A DNA stretch of 64,000 nt from Yersinia mollaretii ATCC 43969 (lineage in GTDB: Bacteria; Pseudomonadota; Gammaproteobacteria; Enterobacterales; Enterobacteriaceae), in assembly GCF_013282725.1 (NCBI RefSeq), contig NZ_CP054043.1, positions 1,798,001 to 1,862,000 of the forward strand, read 5' to 3'. Below, piece after piece: positions 38,267-44,955 of the stretch (position 1 is its first letter; each line of letters starts with the position of its first letter). The position numbers and the translations under genes were made by a program. The notes beneath the pieces were generated by a model, which was not told the origin of the DNA, searched no databases, and saw only the letters and a list, made by a program, of their open reading frames with translations.

Positions 38267-38992
38267 TCAGTGCTCCATGGTCAGTTCAATCATGTCAGCA
38301 CGGGTCAGGCTGACGGAGTATTCCGCCACCTGTTGGCTATCGACACCGATATTTAAGGTGCGCACACACAGCAGCGGCGCATGGGTGGCAATTTCCAGCA
38401 AGCGGCTCTCTTTGGCCTGCGCACGGCGTGCACTGATGCGGGTCTGGCTGCGGCTTAGCGGGTGTTGCAGATGCTGCGTGATGAATTGATGTAGCGAGCC
38501 AGAGTTGAACTGCTGTAGCGCGGGCCACCAACTCAAGTCTGGCAGATAGTGATCGATCACGCAGACTGGCACGCCATTCACTCGTCGTAGGGTGCGTAAA
38601 TGGATAACCGGGGTGCCCTCTTCCAGCGAGAGTGCTTTAGCGACATGCTCGACACAAGGGCGCAAGACGGCTAGTAAGCGCTCACTGGTGGGGTCGCTGC
38701 CCTGATCAAGTAAGTTTTGGCTAAAGCGCGCATTGGCATGAAGTGGATAGTCATAGGGGCGCATCAACACCAAAATGCCGATGCCCTGACGGCGTTGCAG
38801 CCAACCGCGCTCAACTAACTCATCAACGGCACGACGCAAAGTATGGCGGTTAACCTGATAACGATCAGCCAGTTGCTGCTCAGGAGGTAGGTAATCACCA
38901 CAGCGGTAGGTGCCACGCAGCTCTTGCTCTAGCTGGGCCGCAATTTGTTGATAGCGGGTGGGGAAACTGGTCGGTGGTCTAGATAAGTTCAT
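38267..38992 (-). CDS. phnF: PhnF, GntR-family regulator of phosphonate metabolism
   Basis: PhnF is a GntR/HutC-family transcription regulator. The 241-residue protein has an N-terminal winged helix (FPTRYQQIAAQLEQEL, then VNRHTLRRAVDELVERGWL) and a C-terminal UTRA effector domain (from about 95; ISARRAQAKESRLLEI). The start MNLSRPPTSFPTRY at 38992 matches E. coli; an in-frame ATG ten codons upstream is not preferred. It heads the operon here, whereas E. coli has phnCDE ahead of it. Effector and operator are unknown. Confidence 0.94.
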   Translation of the reverse strand: MNLSRPPTSFPTRYQQIAAQLEQELRGTYRCGDYLPPEQQLADRYQVNRHTLRRAVDELVERGWLQRRQGIGILVLMRPYDYPLHANARFSQNLLDQGSDPTSERLLAVLRPCVEHVAKALSLEEGTPVIHLRTLRRVNGVPVCVIDHYLPDLSWWPALQQFNSGSLHQFITQHLQHPLSRSQTRISARRAQAKESRLLEIATHAPLLCVRTLNIGVDSQQVAEYSVSLTRADMIELTMEH

Positions 38993-39275
38993 GGCAGATA
39001 TATCCTCTCTCAGCACCATCACCCCTGACGACCCGATGAGATGAAGCAGTAGAGAGCGTCCAACGGGCGAGCAGTGAGGTGATTGTCATGGCGATAACCA
39101 GTAAGTGATCTCACCGTTATGCTGGCTTTGCTTCATGACAGTAGGGTTAAGCGGAGATGGCGCTACGATGAATTTTTAGGGCGACACAGCAGTTTTCGTG
39201 GGCGCAAAAGTGAGCTGATTGCAAGAAAAATATTTATCACATTATCAATCTGATAGATGTCCATTCGGCAATTAA
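38993..39275. other. Divergent control region of the phn operon and the lipoprotein gene
   Basis: The gap between phnF and the 39379 gene totals 386 bases. It has a single Pho-box-like half site on the minus strand (CTGTCAT, complement of 39135-39141) without a good second half. The imperfect repeat GTGAGGTGATT and AAGTGATCTCAC lies around 39078-39118. Neither is strong enough to call an operator. From about 39220 the sequence is AT-rich. Confidence 0.35.
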
Positions 39276-39307
39276 TTGCATTAAACATAAAATAAACATT
39301 AATGCAA
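39276..39307. promoter_or_regulatory. Inverted repeat upstream of the glycine-rich lipoprotein gene
   Basis: TTGCATTAA (39276-39284) and TTAATGCAA (39299-39307) are perfect 9-bp inverted arms, 14 bases apart, 72 bases before the gene start. The layout suits a dimeric regulator site or an overlapping promoter element. The regulator is unknown. Confidence 0.5.
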
Positions 39308-39343
39308 CTTGAGGGAAACATAAGTATCTCTTACAATTAAGTG

Positions 39344-39358
39344 ACGCCACCGTGGCGT
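39344..39358 (+). other. Small hairpin just before the lipoprotein ribosome-binding site
   Basis: ACGCCAC and GTGGCGT pair around one base, ending about six bases before the TGAGGG ribosome-binding site of the gene at 39379. It could affect translation or mRNA 5' stability. Confidence 0.45.
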
Positions 39359-39378
39359 TCTCTCTGAGGGTTTATACT

Positions 39379-40431
39379 ATGCGCCCTAATAATATTAGCC
39401 ATCTGAGCAAGATAAGTCTGGCCATATTGCTTGCTTGCTCTCTTGCAGCTTGTAGCGGAAGTGGCGGCGGCTCCCACAATGCGGCGAAGACGAATTCAGG
39501 CCAGACAACGGGTGACTCAGGGACGGGCGGCGGAACTGGCGGAGGTACTGGTGGAGGCACGGGAGGCGGCACTGGAGGCGGTTCTGGCGGAGGTACGACA
39601 ACCAGTAACTCTCCGGTCGGCAATGTTGTCAGTGGCGTCGGTAATGCGGTGGATGGTGTCGGTAATACCGTCAGCGGTGTGGTCACTCAAACACCAGTGG
39701 GCAGCTTGCCTGTGGTCGGCACGGGTCTGGTCACCGTGGTTGATAGCGCGGGTAATGCCGTCAGTGATGTCGGGACCGGATTACAGACCGGTGTCGGTCA
39801 ATTGGGAAATAATCCTAATGCATTAGGGACGACCGCAGCCGGAGTACCGAAAGCGGTGGCTGATGTCGGCACCGGGGTTTCAGGATTAGGCGGCACAGTT
39901 TCAGGTATCGGCACCAATACGCCATTGGCGGGTGTGACCGGAACTGCGGGCGGCTTGGTGGATAAGACCGGAGGCGCAGTCAACGCCATTGGCAATGGAC
40001 TGGCGCAAGATCTGCAAACTGGGACCACCAGCAAGTTGACCACGGCAGCAACCGGGATCGTGACGCCAGTAGTGGGTCAGGTACAGGGCATTACACAATC
40101 TGTCGGTGCCACCACCGGGGTGGGTACACCTGTGAATAACTTGCTGACCACTGTGGGCGGGAGTGTGACCGCCACTGGGACTCAAGTGGGTAGCAGCTCA
40201 CCGGCTTTAGCGGGGGTAGGCCAAGTGTTGCAAGGCACGGGTCAGGCGGTGTCGAGTACTGGCGGTCTGGTCTCTTCACCCACCTCAACAGGTGGCTCTA
40301 ATGGCCTGTTGTCTGGGGTTAATAACACGGTTGGCGGTGTCACTGGCGGATTAACCGCAGGGGCTTCAGCTTCGGCCAGCGCGAGTGCCAGTGGTGGATT
40401 GGGCGGGTTATTGAAACCGAAAACCTACTAA
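39379..40431 (+). CDS. Glycine-rich lipoprotein paired with a TpsB transporter
   Basis: The 350-residue protein has a lipoprotein signal ending L-A-A-C with Cys25 as the acylated residue. Ser follows, so the +2 rule predicts outer-membrane sorting. Next is a spacer built of six Gly-Thr-Gly-Gly-type units (39520-39597). The body (about 80-320) is degenerate repeats rich in Val, Gly, Thr, Asn, such as VGNVVSGVGNAVDGVGNTVSG. A run of Ala-Ser pairs and GGLGGLLKPKTY close it. There is no TPS haemagglutinin domain and almost no charge or aromatic content. RefSeq names such as collagen-like repeat protein are used for similar sequences, as I recall. The neighbouring FhaC-like gene suggests a secreted or surface partner. 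Function unknown. Confidence 0.7.
   Translation: MRPNNISHLSKISLAILLACSLAACSGSGGGSHNAAKTNSGQTTGDSGTGGGTGGGTGGGTGGGTGGGSGGGTTTSNSPVGNVVSGVGNAVDGVGNTVSGVVTQTPVGSLPVVGTGLVTVVDSAGNAVSDVGTGLQTGVGQLGNNPNALGTTAAGVPKAVADVGTGVSGLGGTVSGIGTNTPLAGVTGTAGGLVDKTGGAVNAIGNGLAQDLQTGTTSKLTTAATGIVTPVVGQVQGITQSVGATTGVGTPVNNLLTTVGGSVTATGTQVGSSSPALAGVGQVLQGTGQAVSSTGGLVSSPTSTGGSNGLLSGVNNTVGGVTGGLTAGASASASASASGGLGGLLKPKTY
39520..39597 (+). repeat. Coding repeat of Gly-Thr-Gly-Gly units
   Basis: About six 12-base units encode G-T-G-G (one G-S-G-G). Third codon positions differ freely between units, so the repeat is conserved at the protein level and is not a fresh slippage product. Confidence 0.85.
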
Positions 40432-40446
40432 GCCATCGCGAGATTA

Positions 40447-40472
40447 GCTCCCCTGCTTATTCTCAGGGGAGC
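40447..40472 (+). terminator. Hairpin between the lipoprotein and TpsB genes
   Basis: GCTCCCCTG and CAGGGGAGC form a perfect 9-bp stem with an 8-base loop, 15 bases after the lipoprotein stop, followed by a weak T-rich stretch. It may partially terminate, giving more lipoprotein than transporter transcript. Confidence 0.7.
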
Positions 40473-40541
40473 GTCTCATTTAAAGATAATAAAAATAGAC
40501 TATTAAAATTATAATATTGTGTGCGCCTAAGGAAATATTCT

Positions 40542-42269
40542 ATGAATAATAGAGCGTGGCTATTATTGTTCTTGGGGTGGCAATACAGTGCATGGGCGAA
40601 TACCGTGCCGATGTTAATCGATCCCAATAACCCCTCAAAAATATCTCGTGATATCACGAAACCACAACTCACCCGACCCGCTCGACCCGCACCACCGGTT
40701 ATTTCCCCCCCGGCACCCGGCCCTAAATTAACACTCGATACACTGATTGATGTGAAAAATATTGAGTTTATCGGTGGCACCCAATATGACATTCAACAGC
40801 TTCGTGAGCCATTTAATGCTTATATTGGCAAAAAAGTGCCATTAAAGAGTTTGCTGGTGGCAACGCAGTCTATTACTCAGCGCTATCAGAAAGACGGTTT
40901 TGTGCTCTCCTATGCTTATTTGCCCTCCGACAATTTCGCCAATGGCACATTAAAAGTCGGATTGGTTGAAGGTTATATCGCGAACACCCGTATTCAAAGT
41001 GATAATACGATGATAGGCCGCTGGCTGACCAAGCTGTCCCAGCGCATTATGGCAGAGAAGCCGCTGACGCTGGATACCTTCGAGCGCTACAATATTTTGA
41101 TGACTCGTACACCGGATACTAAAGTGATCGCCACAGCGAAAAATCCAGATAATATTTATGGTGCGACATTATTGGATATTAAAGCTGACCATCCGCGTTA
41201 TTGGAATGTGACTACCGCACTGGATAGCCGCAAAGGGGTATACAGTGGGGTGCTTAATGCGACCTTAAGTGGTTTTACCCCCTATGCTGAGCAATTGGGT
41301 ATCGCCACACTATTACCGCTTAATAATAAAAATAGAGATCAATATCTAGGGATAAACTACCAACAATATTTAGGCAGTGATGGCTTATTGCTGCAAACCC
41401 GTGGCAGTTATTATAAGCAGGCCCCGAAAGATTATACGGATTTACTGACTATCTACCCCGAGAATATCACCTTAGCCGCTCGCACTGAGCAGGTGCAATA
41501 TACCGGCGGCGTAGTATTAAGTTATCCATTGGTATTAACCCGTAAACGGCAATGGACAGTAAGTGGTGGGCTGGATTATCTGGAAAAAAGTTTTACCCTG
41601 AAGCAACGCGCCAGACTGAATAGCCAAAATAATTTATTGGTCGATTTGGAAGACAATAATCAGCGAATGCATTATCCAGCCGCCGAATTGGCATTGACTG
41701 GGTATCGTGAATATACGAAAGCCTATTGGAGCACCCGCGCCAGTGTGCGCCAAGGGGTCAATGGTGCGCTGGCGGGCAGCTCTGTTCCTTGGGGGGACTT
41801 AGGTTTTACCCGCTGGAAACTCACTGGCGATGGGGCTTATCTGATGGATGAAAAATGGCGCTTAAGTGCGGCGGTGGAAGGCGATTGGTCGGATAATGAT
41901 TTGCCGGAACCTGAGCAGGTGACGTTCGGCGGGATCAGGTTTGGCCGGGGTTATCCAGACAGCGAAGCGATGGGCGATTACGGCTATGGTGGGCAGGTAG
42001 AAATGCGCTATATACACAATCGTGAAAAGGGAAATTGGTTGAAAACCGTCCAGCCTTACGTGGTCGTGGATACCGCCCACACGGGGTACAACTCGGCTAT
42101 CTTCCCGTCTAAGAAGCTGGCTTCCTATGCCGTGGGGGTGACGTTTAGTGATAACAAACACTATTCGCTATCACTGGAAGGGGCAAGGCCGATTGGCGAC
42201 CTGCCCAGTGACAGTAGCCGCCGAGATTGGCGGTTTAATGCCACATTAACCTATAACTTTGCCAATTGA
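40542..42269 (+). CDS. ShlB/FhaC/HecB-family outer-membrane transporter (TpsB)
   Basis: The 575-residue protein has a signal peptide (cleavage after about residue 20, SAWA) and a proline-rich linker (PARPAPPVISPPAPGP). Two POTRA domains follow (about 55-205), then a C-terminal beta-barrel. The barrel contains the conserved L6 tip motif F-G-R-G-Y-P with Arg469. This is the architecture of TpsB transporters, members of the Omp85 superfamily that export large TpsA exoproteins. Here no TpsA gene is adjacent; the only neighbour is the glycine-rich lipoprotein 110 bases upstream. The C-terminus ends T-Y-N-F-A-N, not in an aromatic residue. Start at 40542 follows AAGGAAA. Confidence 0.85.
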   Translation: MNNRAWLLLFLGWQYSAWANTVPMLIDPNNPSKISRDITKPQLTRPARPAPPVISPPAPGPKLTLDTLIDVKNIEFIGGTQYDIQQLREPFNAYIGKKVPLKSLLVATQSITQRYQKDGFVLSYAYLPSDNFANGTLKVGLVEGYIANTRIQSDNTMIGRWLTKLSQRIMAEKPLTLDTFERYNILMTRTPDTKVIATAKNPDNIYGATLLDIKADHPRYWNVTTALDSRKGVYSGVLNATLSGFTPYAEQLGIATLLPLNNKNRDQYLGINYQQYLGSDGLLLQTRGSYYKQAPKDYTDLLTIYPENITLAARTEQVQYTGGVVLSYPLVLTRKRQWTVSGGLDYLEKSFTLKQRARLNSQNNLLVDLEDNNQRMHYPAAELALTGYREYTKAYWSTRASVRQGVNGALAGSSVPWGDLGFTRWKLTGDGAYLMDEKWRLSAAVEGDWSDNDLPEPEQVTFGGIRFGRGYPDSEAMGDYGYGGQVEMRYIHNREKGNWLKTVQPYVVVDTAHTGYNSAIFPSKKLASYAVGVTFSDNKHYSLSLEGARPIGDLPSDSSRRDWRFNATLTYNFAN

Positions 42270-42304
42270 TTTAAGGCTATCTGACTTGCTAGCGAAATGA
42301 CTTG

Positions 42305-42769
42305 TTAACGCAAATAGTGAATCATCTGATTGCCGCTGCCGCGCCAGATAAGGGAGGGATCTTTTAGATCCTGCACGAATTTGCCATCGACAAGCACGTT
42401 AATGAGATCAACTATTTGTTGTTGCTCGTCAGTCAGTTCATCGAGTGTATAGCCCGTCCAGACCCAGATATCTTTGCCATCACACTCATCACGCACGCGT
42501 TTGACCAGTTGCAAGATAGCGGACACATTTTGCGGGTGTAGTGGATCGCCGCCGGAGAGGGATAGCCCCTGACGCGGGATACGGGAGTCATTCAGATCAG
42601 CGATGATCCGATCCTCCACTTCTGGGGTAAACGGCTTACCGGAATTCAATCGCCAAGTACTTTTGTTATAACAGCCCACACACTCGTGCACACAGCCGGA
42701 GACGAACAGGGTGCAGCGAGTGCCGGGGCCGTTGATGACGTCGACCGGGTAGTATTGATGAAAATTCAT
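42305..42769 (-). CDS. nrdG: Anaerobic ribonucleotide reductase activase NrdG
   Basis: NrdG is the radical-SAM activase that generates the glycyl radical on NrdD. The 154-residue protein starts MNFHQYYPVDVINGPG, has the CxxxCxxC cluster motif CVHECVGC, and includes LSLSGGDPLHP and WTGYTLDEL. The ATG at 42769 matches the E. coli start and length; the in-frame ATG 13 codons earlier is not favoured. It lies 47 bases after nrdD on the same strand. Confidence 0.96.
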   Translation of the reverse strand: MNFHQYYPVDVINGPGTRCTLFVSGCVHECVGCYNKSTWRLNSGKPFTPEVEDRIIADLNDSRIPRQGLSLSGGDPLHPQNVSAILQLVKRVRDECDGKDIWVWTGYTLDELTDEQQQIVDLINVLVDGKFVQDLKDPSLIWRGSGNQMIHYLR

Positions 42770-42816
42770 ATAATTTGGGTAATTCCGTGTTACAGGGAGC
42801 AATTTCACACCGAGAA

Positions 42817-44955
42817 TCAGCCCAGTTGCCCGCTTGCCAAATGTTTCACTCGGCGTTTGACCTCTTCTTGCTTACCAGCATTGAATGGTCGTGCATCGGG
42901 GCTGCCCAGATAACCACACACCCGGCGGGTGACTGACACTTTCGACGGCTCGTGGTTACCGCATTTCGGGCAGGTGAAGCCTTTGCTGGTGCAGGAGAAC
43001 TCGCCAGTAAAGCCGCATTCGTAGCACTCATCAATCGGCGTGTTGGTGCCGTAATAGGGGACTCGGCTGTAGCTGTAGTCCCAGACATCTTCCAGCGCCC
43101 GCAAGTTATGCTGCAAGTTAGGGTACTCGCCGTAACAGATGAAACCGCCGTTAGCCAATGGCGGATAGGGCGCTTCGAAATCCAGTTTGTCGTAGGGATT
43201 CACTTTCTTCTCGACATCCAGATGGAAGCTATTGGTGTAGTAACCTTTGTCTGTCACGCCCTCGACCACGCCAAACTCAGCGGTATCAAGGCGGCAGAAG
43301 CGATCACACAGATTTTCACTTGGCGTGCTGTACAGGCTGAAGGCGTAGCCGGTTTCCTCTTTCCAGCTATCGGTGGCTTGTCTCATACGCTCAACGATCG
43401 CCACGGCTTTTTCACGTAACTTTTCATCATCAAAGACATGGGCCTGATGACCAAACAGCGCATTAACGGTTTCATGAATACCGATAAAGCCCAGTGAGAT
43501 GGATGCGCGGCCGTTTTTAAAGATTTCAGAAATATTGTCGTCCGCCTGTAAGCGCACACCGCAAGCCCCCTCCATATACAAAATAGGTGCGACCCGCGCT
43601 TTGATCCCTTCCAGACGGGCAATGCGGGTCATCAGGGCTTTTTTGGCTAACAGCAGGCGCTCATCCAGCATATGCCAGAATTTATCTTCATCGCCTTTGG
43701 CTTCCAGCGCGATACGCGGCAGGTTAAGGCTGATTACCCCCAGATTGTTACGGCCATCATGGATCTGTTTACCCTCCTCTTCGTAAACCCCGAGGAAGCT
43801 GCGGCAGCCCATCGGCGTTTTAAAGGAGCCAGTGACTTTCACTACTTGGTCATAATTCAGAATGTCGGGATACATGCGCTTGGTGGCGCACTCCAGCGCT
43901 AACTGTTTGATATCGTAGTTAGGATCGCCAAATTTGTGATTGAGGCCATCGCGGATAGCAAACACCAGTTTCGGGAAGACGGCCGTTTTACGGTTTTTGC
44001 CTAGACCCGCAATGCGGTTACGCAAAATAGCCTGCTGGATCATGCGCGACTGCCAACTGGTGCCCAGCCCGAAACCGAAGGTGACAAAGGGCGTCTGGCC
44101 ATTAGCGGTGTGCAGGGTATTGACTTCATACTCCAGTGACTGGAAGGCGTCGTAACACTCTTTCTCGGTGCGCGACATGGCATAACCGGCGGCATCCGGG
44201 ATCTGCCACTCTTGCGCCACAGATTTATGCTTATTGAAACTTTCTGTGACGAACGGAGCCAGAATTTCATCGATACGGTTGATGGTTGTGCCGCCATAGA
44301 TATGGCTGGCAACCTGCGCGATAATTTGTGCCGTGACAGCGGTGGCCGTCGAGATGGATTTCGGTGGCTCGATCTCCGCGTTGCCCATTTTAAAGCCCTG
44401 CGTCAACATGCCATCGAGGTCAATCAACATGCAGTTGAACATCGGGAAGAAGGGCGCGTAATCCAGATCGTGATAGTGGATCTCACCGCGTTCATGGGCC
44501 AGTACTACATCGCGCGGCAAGATATGCTGTTTGGCGTAGTGTTTGGCGACAATACCGGCCAGCAGGTCGCGCTGTGTCGGGATCACTTTACTGTCTTTAT
44601 TCGCATTTTCGTTCAGCAGCGCTTTGTTGCTTTGCTCCACTAAACCCCGGATTTCCTGATTCAGGCGACCCCGCAGTTCCCGCGAGATATCTCGGTCATG
44701 GCGATACTCGATATAGGCTCGGGCTAGCTGCTTGTATTGACCGGCCATCAATTGGTTTTCGACCGCATTTTGGATATCGCGGATATCAACCTTCGGCTGG
44801 TTCTCCATCGTCTGAGCGACCACCCGGGCAACAGTTGCACAATAATCTGCGTCCACAACGCCAACAGCTAAAGCTGCGCGCTCGACGGCTTCCTTGATCC
44901 GCACCTCATCAAAAGGCACCTGACAACCGTCCCGTTTAATCACTACTGTTTTCAC
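42817..44955 (-). CDS. nrdD: Anaerobic ribonucleoside-triphosphate reductase NrdD
   Basis: NrdD is the class III ribonucleotide reductase used without oxygen. The 712-residue protein, the same length as in E. coli, has an N-terminal ATP-cone (MKTVVIKRDGCQVPFDEVRI). Its catalytic barrel is followed by a zinc cysteine cluster (CYECGFTGEFSC and CPKCGNHEP) and the glycyl-radical motif RVCGYLGSPDARPFN near the C-terminus. It forms an operon with nrdG. Candidate NrdR boxes lie 108-154 bases upstream. Confidence 0.97.
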   Translation of the reverse strand: MKTVVIKRDGCQVPFDEVRIKEAVERAALAVGVVDADYCATVARVVAQTMENQPKVDIRDIQNAVENQLMAGQYKQLARAYIEYRHDRDISRELRGRLNQEIRGLVEQSNKALLNENANKDSKVIPTQRDLLAGIVAKHYAKQHILPRDVVLAHERGEIHYHDLDYAPFFPMFNCMLIDLDGMLTQGFKMGNAEIEPPKSISTATAVTAQIIAQVASHIYGGTTINRIDEILAPFVTESFNKHKSVAQEWQIPDAAGYAMSRTEKECYDAFQSLEYEVNTLHTANGQTPFVTFGFGLGTSWQSRMIQQAILRNRIAGLGKNRKTAVFPKLVFAIRDGLNHKFGDPNYDIKQLALECATKRMYPDILNYDQVVKVTGSFKTPMGCRSFLGVYEEEGKQIHDGRNNLGVISLNLPRIALEAKGDEDKFWHMLDERLLLAKKALMTRIARLEGIKARVAPILYMEGACGVRLQADDNISEIFKNGRASISLGFIGIHETVNALFGHQAHVFDDEKLREKAVAIVERMRQATDSWKEETGYAFSLYSTPSENLCDRFCRLDTAEFGVVEGVTDKGYYTNSFHLDVEKKVNPYDKLDFEAPYPPLANGGFICYGEYPNLQHNLRALEDVWDYSYSRVPYYGTNTPIDECYECGFTGEFSCTSKGFTCPKCGNHEPSKVSVTRRVCGYLGSPDARPFNAGKQEEVKRRVKHLASGQLG

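Follow-up and report, generated by a model that had tools for sequence, protein, structure and literature searches.

What is exported by an FhaC-type outer-membrane transporter when the gene beside it encodes a lipoprotein and no TpsA protein? TpsB transporters have been described as exporters of proteins with a conserved N-terminal two-partner secretion (TPS) domain, a rule that a clade paired with lipoproteins would break. The question arises at a locus of Yersinia mollaretii ATCC 43969, in a stretch of 64,000 nucleotides that was analysed as a whole (the window; contig NZ_CP054043.1, positions 1,798,001 to 1,862,000). Here a lipoprotein gene at positions 39379 to 40431 and a tpsB gene at 40542 to 42269 lie on the same strand (+, as do all features below) with a spacer of 110 bp between them. 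A preliminary description had placed the locus at 39276 to 42269; the end is that of tpsB, whereas the start precedes the lipoprotein ATG at 39379 by about 100 bp. We find that the lipoprotein and the TpsB are a conserved two-partner pair, recurring in distantly related proteobacteria. Judged from sequence and structure models, the TpsB probably exports the lipoprotein as its cargo in a type Vb-like system.

The pairing, first proposed from adjacency and shared orientation, was borne out as a conserved unit from both sides. On the transporter side, a pattern derived from a 21-transporter alignment was run, non-exhaustively, against genomes that each represent one GTDB species, and gave 50 loci, all Enterobacterales by title. 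Pfam Collagen_mid (PF15984), the family of the window lipoprotein, scored over its cut-off in all 50 genomes, with one gene each, and a purpose-built lipoprotein profile found its match in the same locus as TpsB in 48 of them; in the other two (L054 and L056) the contig ends inside tpsB. The purpose-built profile drew on 33 of the 50 loci, among others, and the Pfam count is the independent test. A long tpsB frame was wanting only in Kluyvera genomosp. 3 (L060, genome G984), where the Collagen_mid gene is split across two frames and the pair looks broken as a unit. On the lipoprotein side, PF15984 was over cut-off in 2 of 274, 4 of 295 and 11 of 329 genomes drawn from class, order and phylum, respectively; the draws overlap and comprise 15 distinct genomes, seven genomes with sub-cut-off matches being excluded. 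In all 15, a Collagen_mid gene lies directly upstream of a TpsB of the clade delimited below, so that no genome carried the lipoprotein without the transporter. Among the 23 Collagen_mid proteins over cut-off in the phylum draw (two G943 rows are one frame), 13 are encoded directly upstream of TpsB, either singly or as two genes in tandem. A protein search with the lipoprotein as query yielded five relatives among the 8000 most word-sharing candidates scored, a count that is no measure of rarity.

A quick tree was computed for 54 transporters, of which 13 belong to Enterobacterales pairs; in it, 18 lipoprotein-paired TpsBs formed one clade with a support of 100 in the SH-like approximate likelihood ratio test (SH-aLRT). 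This clade comprises members from Enterobacterales, Caballeronia, Cupriavidus and the genomes G160, G356 and G696 and leaves out all 15 TpsA-paired transporters as well as the 20 others; 17 forks across the tree, some of them inside the clade, were unresolved. The partner lipoprotein matched the collagen profile for 17 of the 18, that of L109 failing. When the Cupriavidus transporter was searched against 369 genomes of the class, 22 genomes matched at E 1e-20 or better, and of the 15 resulting loci the top three (the window, G160 and G696) adjoin a Collagen_mid match and the other 12 none. Whole TpsBs beside a collagen-profile match scored at least 269.6 bits against the A1 profile, those without at most 158.1 bits, with the exception of G356, whose TpsB reached 396 bits next to a Gly-rich lipoprotein that no profile recognised. 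In plasmids, tblastn returned 42 records for the window TpsB and 29 for the Cupriavidus TpsB. At three of the eight places inspected (Caballeronia, Cupriavidus and Sphingobium) a lipoprotein gene lies directly ahead of tpsB, and those of Caballeronia and Cupriavidus match the Collagen_mid profile; the remaining five gave no lipoprotein-profile match. Complete Escherichia coli genomes gave no match at blastn sensitivity. Pairwise distances of lipoprotein and TpsB correlated over 46 loci (r 0.95), a comparison that does not discriminate, as it had no control gene and both proteins probably track species descent.

The surroundings of the pair vary. The 45 Enterobacterales pairs whose lipoprotein was readable fell into seven groups without a common flanking gene (50% identity, retrieved flanks), and the adjacency is therefore not a by-product of shared surroundings. 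Relatives of the window's flanking genes, which we take to be phnF, nrdG and nrdD, accompany the pair in the five Yersinia loci only, among the 50. This gene order and the nearest named homologues both agree with the Yersinia origin of the window. The pair of G356 adjoins genes that we read as flp-pilus genes, and that of G160 what is presumably pnp.

A TpsA protein encoded elsewhere could still be the steady partner of these transporters. We therefore searched for the TPS domain (PF05860) in 48 entries, namely 42 of the 50 loci, five further genomes and one plasmid record (46 distinct, since G499 equals G572 and G529 equals G599). The domain was absent from 12 entries, corresponding to 11 distinct pair-bearing genomes, among them that of Rahnella woolbedingensis (L020) and G595, whose assembly is partial (2.8 Mb). 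In nine of these 11, including G595, the TpsB of the pair was the sole ShlB-family match. As far as PF05860 can detect, these genomes encode no canonical TpsA that could be the partner, while the others are uninformative in this respect. Close to the pair, a TPS profile built from the five proteins of the Yersinia genome itself matched none of the 50 related loci over the DNA retrieved for each. That genome (4.6 Mb) has five ShlB-family and five TPS-domain matches, with open frames of 491 to 2973 aa for the TPS proteins. None of the five TPS domains lies in the window, in keeping with the preliminary description, which had seen no TpsA gene nearby; the other four ShlB genes each adjoin a TPS domain, whereas the window tpsB does not. 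The fifth TPS domain belongs to a CdiA-like protein of 1541 aa at C1:2092870, outside the window, without a neighbouring ShlB/TpsB gene, and several frames downstream of it resemble orphan C-terminal and immunity cassettes (L113, 7772 to 16684, taken from C1:2085000 to 2104000).

The transporter itself appears complete, as had been described, with 575 aa and Pfam matches to POTRA_2 (E 7.7e-15) and ShlB (E 1.2e-11, 45.1 bits against a curated cut-off of 22.7). Model and Pfam together place two POTRA domains ahead of a 16-stranded beta-barrel. POTRA 1 (PF08479) covers residues 70 to 144 (40749 to 40973); POTRA 2, residues 145 to 216 (40974 to 41189), had no Pfam match of its own and was read by eye from the secondary structure of the model. 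The strands of the barrel, residues 222 to 573 (41205 to 42260), were counted manually, omitting short strands at 299 to 304 and 365 to 368. Residues 463 to 473, FGGIRFGRGYPD (41928 to 41960), constitute what we take to be the L6-type motif, in which G463, G470, Y471 and D473 are invariant in 21 homologues. The model is structurally close to FhaC and CdiB. Transporters of the TpsB/FhaC type have an N-terminal plug helix, H1; residues 1 to 59 of the window protein were modelled with a predicted local distance difference test score (pLDDT) below 50, and the sole helix there, residues 6 to 11, falls in the signal peptide.

The lipoprotein was rightly described as rich in Gly (26.7% of the mature protein), Thr (15.6%) and Val (13.2%), with Cys25 in a lipobox and Ser at +2; the lipobox reads LAAC. 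At 350 aa, however, it is not particularly small, and it can now be assigned to PF15984 (E 3.8e-36, 125.2 bits against a cut-off of 31.1). This was its sole Pfam match, a collagen-repeat family being absent; the NCBIfam library held no family for it, and all 39 members of set A2 matched PF15984. The 24-residue signal and Cys25 are encoded at 39379 to 39453 and the Ser codon starts at 39454. Ser occupies +2 in all 45 readable orthologues from the 50 Enterobacterales loci. A lipobox Cys followed by a residue other than Asp marks the window protein as a predicted outer-membrane lipoprotein. In the AlphaFold model, a flexible Gly-rich tether without secondary structure (residues 26 to 78, 39454 to 39612; pLDDT 44 to 49 in ten-residue blocks over residues 21 to 80) precedes a predicted all-helical region (residues 79 to 297, 39613 to 40269); the Collagen_mid match spans residues 115 to 299. 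Block pLDDT values in the helical region were 75 to 88 (residues 121 to 220) and 79 to 88 (251 to 290), and lower, 41 to 66, at 81 to 120 and 221 to 250. Since the predicted template modelling score was merely 0.42, we do not claim a fold beyond helical. Foldseek against the PDB returned nothing at E 0.001 or better for this model, and sequence-profile matches to the PDB covered mainly profile positions 34 to 125, which is the Gly-rich linker part. A true collagen-like protein was considered and rejected: Gly at every third residue runs for at most four repeats, and residues 79 to 297 are predicted alpha-helical in the single-chain model.

By its transporter the unit is a type Vb variant; with a cargo lacking the TPS domain it falls outside the canonical definition. 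Like FhaB/FhaC and CdiA/CdiB it combines a transporter of this family, with two POTRA domains, a 16-stranded barrel and an L6-type motif, and an adjoining gene for the proposed cargo. It differs in that this cargo carries a lipobox, has no TPS domain, is predicted to be helical or disordered and measures 350 aa, that its gene lies 5' of tpsB with a hairpin in between, and that the transporters are a separate clade. Slam (type XI) likewise devotes an outer-membrane protein to a surface lipoprotein, and its authors likened Slam transport to two-partner secretion in passages of PMC9090332. The window transporter, however, is a POTRA-bearing ShlB/FhaC protein, with only POTRA_2 and ShlB over the Pfam cut-offs and no DUF560/Slam match.

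Described relatives of the lipoprotein include the collagen-like proteins of the Burkholderia cepacia complex, BCAL1523 and BCAL1524, members of the same Pfam family. Passages of PMC10224339 treat the Collagen_mid lipoproteins of this complex as putative adhesins and consider that bcal1523 and bcal1524 may share an operon with bcal1522, whose product is given there as an exported or outer-membrane heme utilization-related protein; the paper names neither ShlB nor POTRA, and its section 3.2 proposes no export partner. In our genome G974, two tandem Collagen_mid genes are followed by a clade tpsB, for which a possible start gives 1686 bp, and then by a DUF2147 gene, for which a possible start gives 462 bp. 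The same lengths are published for bcal1522 and bcal1520, and by gene lengths and order bcal1522 is therefore very probably a clade tpsB. According to passages of PMC10303873, in which the neighbouring BCAL1522 goes unmentioned, BCAL1524 was found in outer-membrane vesicles, its deletion mutant autoaggregated less, and larvae infected with the mutant had higher health scores. PMC4565658 deals with other collagen-like proteins of Burkholderia, and its passages contain no reference to ShlB, to hemolysin or to two-partner terms. A search by title and abstract, covering few subscription papers, returned no paper describing collagen-like or lipidated cargo for a TpsB.

The route that we infer would start with a lipoprotein made with a Sec/lipobox signal and then lipidated, whose Ser at +2 would direct Lol sorting to the outer membrane, as judged from the motif. 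The tether and the helical region would then cross the TpsB barrel to the cell surface, while the acylated N-terminus would hold the lipoprotein, either with the tether in or beside the membrane or after lipid flipping. Since such a cargo offers no TPS domain, its recognition by the POTRA domains would have to rest on another feature, one in the helical or C-terminal part. At the surface the lipoprotein could act as an adhesin or autoaggregation factor. Expression may be graded by a terminator-like hairpin in the spacer (40447 to 40472; nine pairs, seven of them G-C), a putative partial attenuator that would plausibly yield more cargo than transporter. In 38 of 45 loci the score of the spacer hairpin was reached by at most five of 100 shuffles, and the hairpin recurs across genera with differing sequence; an Rfam scan of 38900 to 42900 returned no family. 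Somewhat less firmly, we lean towards a distinct type V subtype, present in several proteobacterial families, whose FhaC-type transporters would export helical, lipidated adhesins devoid of TPS domains, a single transporter being able to serve several dispersed lipoproteins of one genome. The pair suggests an overlooked mode of lipoprotein surface display. If this is true, it would provide an export route for Collagen_mid lipoproteins, the proposed surface adhesion factors in Burkholderia, and a POTRA-dependent path would join the few known routes of lipoprotein display. Genomes with a single TpsB and no TPS protein make export of the lipoprotein directly testable.

Several points weigh against export of the lipoprotein by its TpsB. 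TPS-domain proteins were present in 36 of the 48 entries and in all 11 further genomes, where a TpsA partner is possible. Counted by protein, the association is mixed, as ten of the 23 Collagen_mid proteins are not encoded directly upstream of TpsB: two divergent copies lie beside a pair and eight elsewhere, all in pair-bearing genomes. Extra members occurring where the transporter exists are, however, as expected of dispersed cargoes; the clade TpsB is present once per genome in 13 of 13, yet G972 and G974 have five Collagen_mid proteins each. The vesicle location of the Burkholderia homologue is no proof of outward orientation. The hairpin test failed in seven of 45 loci, and terminator-like sites between 39000 and 42900 were not in excess (three, against 3.3 in shuffles). 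A basic C-terminal signal in the lipoproteins was rejected and is kept only as a lead. Of 46 Enterobacterales lipoproteins, 45 have K, R or H among their last five residues, as do 14 of 17 further lipoproteins next to a TpsB, with a spurious 121-aa frame of L109 excluded, and all 10 of the remaining ones, where composition would predict about 4.5 in total; but ordinary genes largely show a similar bias, such a residue being present in 34 of 50 from the window and in 9 of 11 flank frames of low basic content.

The best-surviving alternative, which we nevertheless consider unlikely, makes the lipoprotein an accessory subunit of a TpsB that exports a TpsA encoded elsewhere, in the manner of BcpO or, for BamA, BamB, the accessory lipoproteins of Omp85-superfamily systems described in parts of PMC5422565 and PMC4104836. 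BcpO, from Burkholderia contact-dependent growth inhibition, is likewise encoded with a TpsB, but it serves a TpsA system (PMC5422565, in part), whereas the window pair has no adjacent TpsA. The Yersinia genome does hold a TpsA-like gene without an adjacent tpsB. Such a subunit is hard to reconcile with the 11 pair-bearing genomes lacking a TPS domain, with the situation in G972 and G974, each of which has one clade TpsB to five divergent Collagen_mid lipoproteins, with a lipoprotein length that varies from 338 to 434 aa among 46 Enterobacterales orthologues, and with the paired TpsBs being a clade of their own.

Slightly less probable still is that the lipoprotein stays periplasmic or reaches the surface by another route, through the beta-barrel assembly machinery (BAM) as for RcsF or spontaneously. 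The TpsB would then export some non-TPS substrate that has escaped recognition, and lipoprotein and transporter would be no more than co-expressed envelope factors. Lipoprotein export by BAM, type II secretion or NalP-type routes is possible according to passages of PMC7857515, unpaired extra Collagen_mid lipoproteins exist, and some distant TpsBs adjoin cyclase or hydrolase genes. Mere co-expression, however, would not predict a clade TpsB in all 15 Collagen_mid genomes and Collagen_mid in all 50 TpsB genomes, nor a pair that stays intact amid differing flanking genes. A decayed TPS locus, in which a TpsB bereft of its TpsA sits beside an unrelated lipoprotein, is very improbable, since the weak ShlB score of the window TpsB (46 bits, against 66.1 for one and 265.6 to 360.5 for three others of the genome) is outweighed by full-length homologues in several families at identities down to 45%, by strict co-conservation and by the loss of a long tpsB frame in only one of 50 loci (L060).

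Beside the favoured pairing of Collagen_mid lipoprotein and clade TpsB, some related loci showed arrangements of their own. The pair of G160 is followed by a third gene (L108, 2442 to 3419), which may be part of the operon; it encodes a secreted-type protein of 325 aa, rich in Gly, Val, Thr and Ala and without a Pfam match. The Gly-rich lipoprotein of the Sphingobium plasmid (L107, 3459 to 6416) fails both collagen profiles and directly precedes a TpsB outside the clade; this may be an independent lipoprotein-TpsB pairing. Finally, ShlB-type transporters of Azospirillum and Mesorhizobium (L130 and L133) are preceded by genes other than tpsA, for a cyclase-domain protein and a serine hydrolase, respectively, and these loci are possibly further non-TPS pairings.

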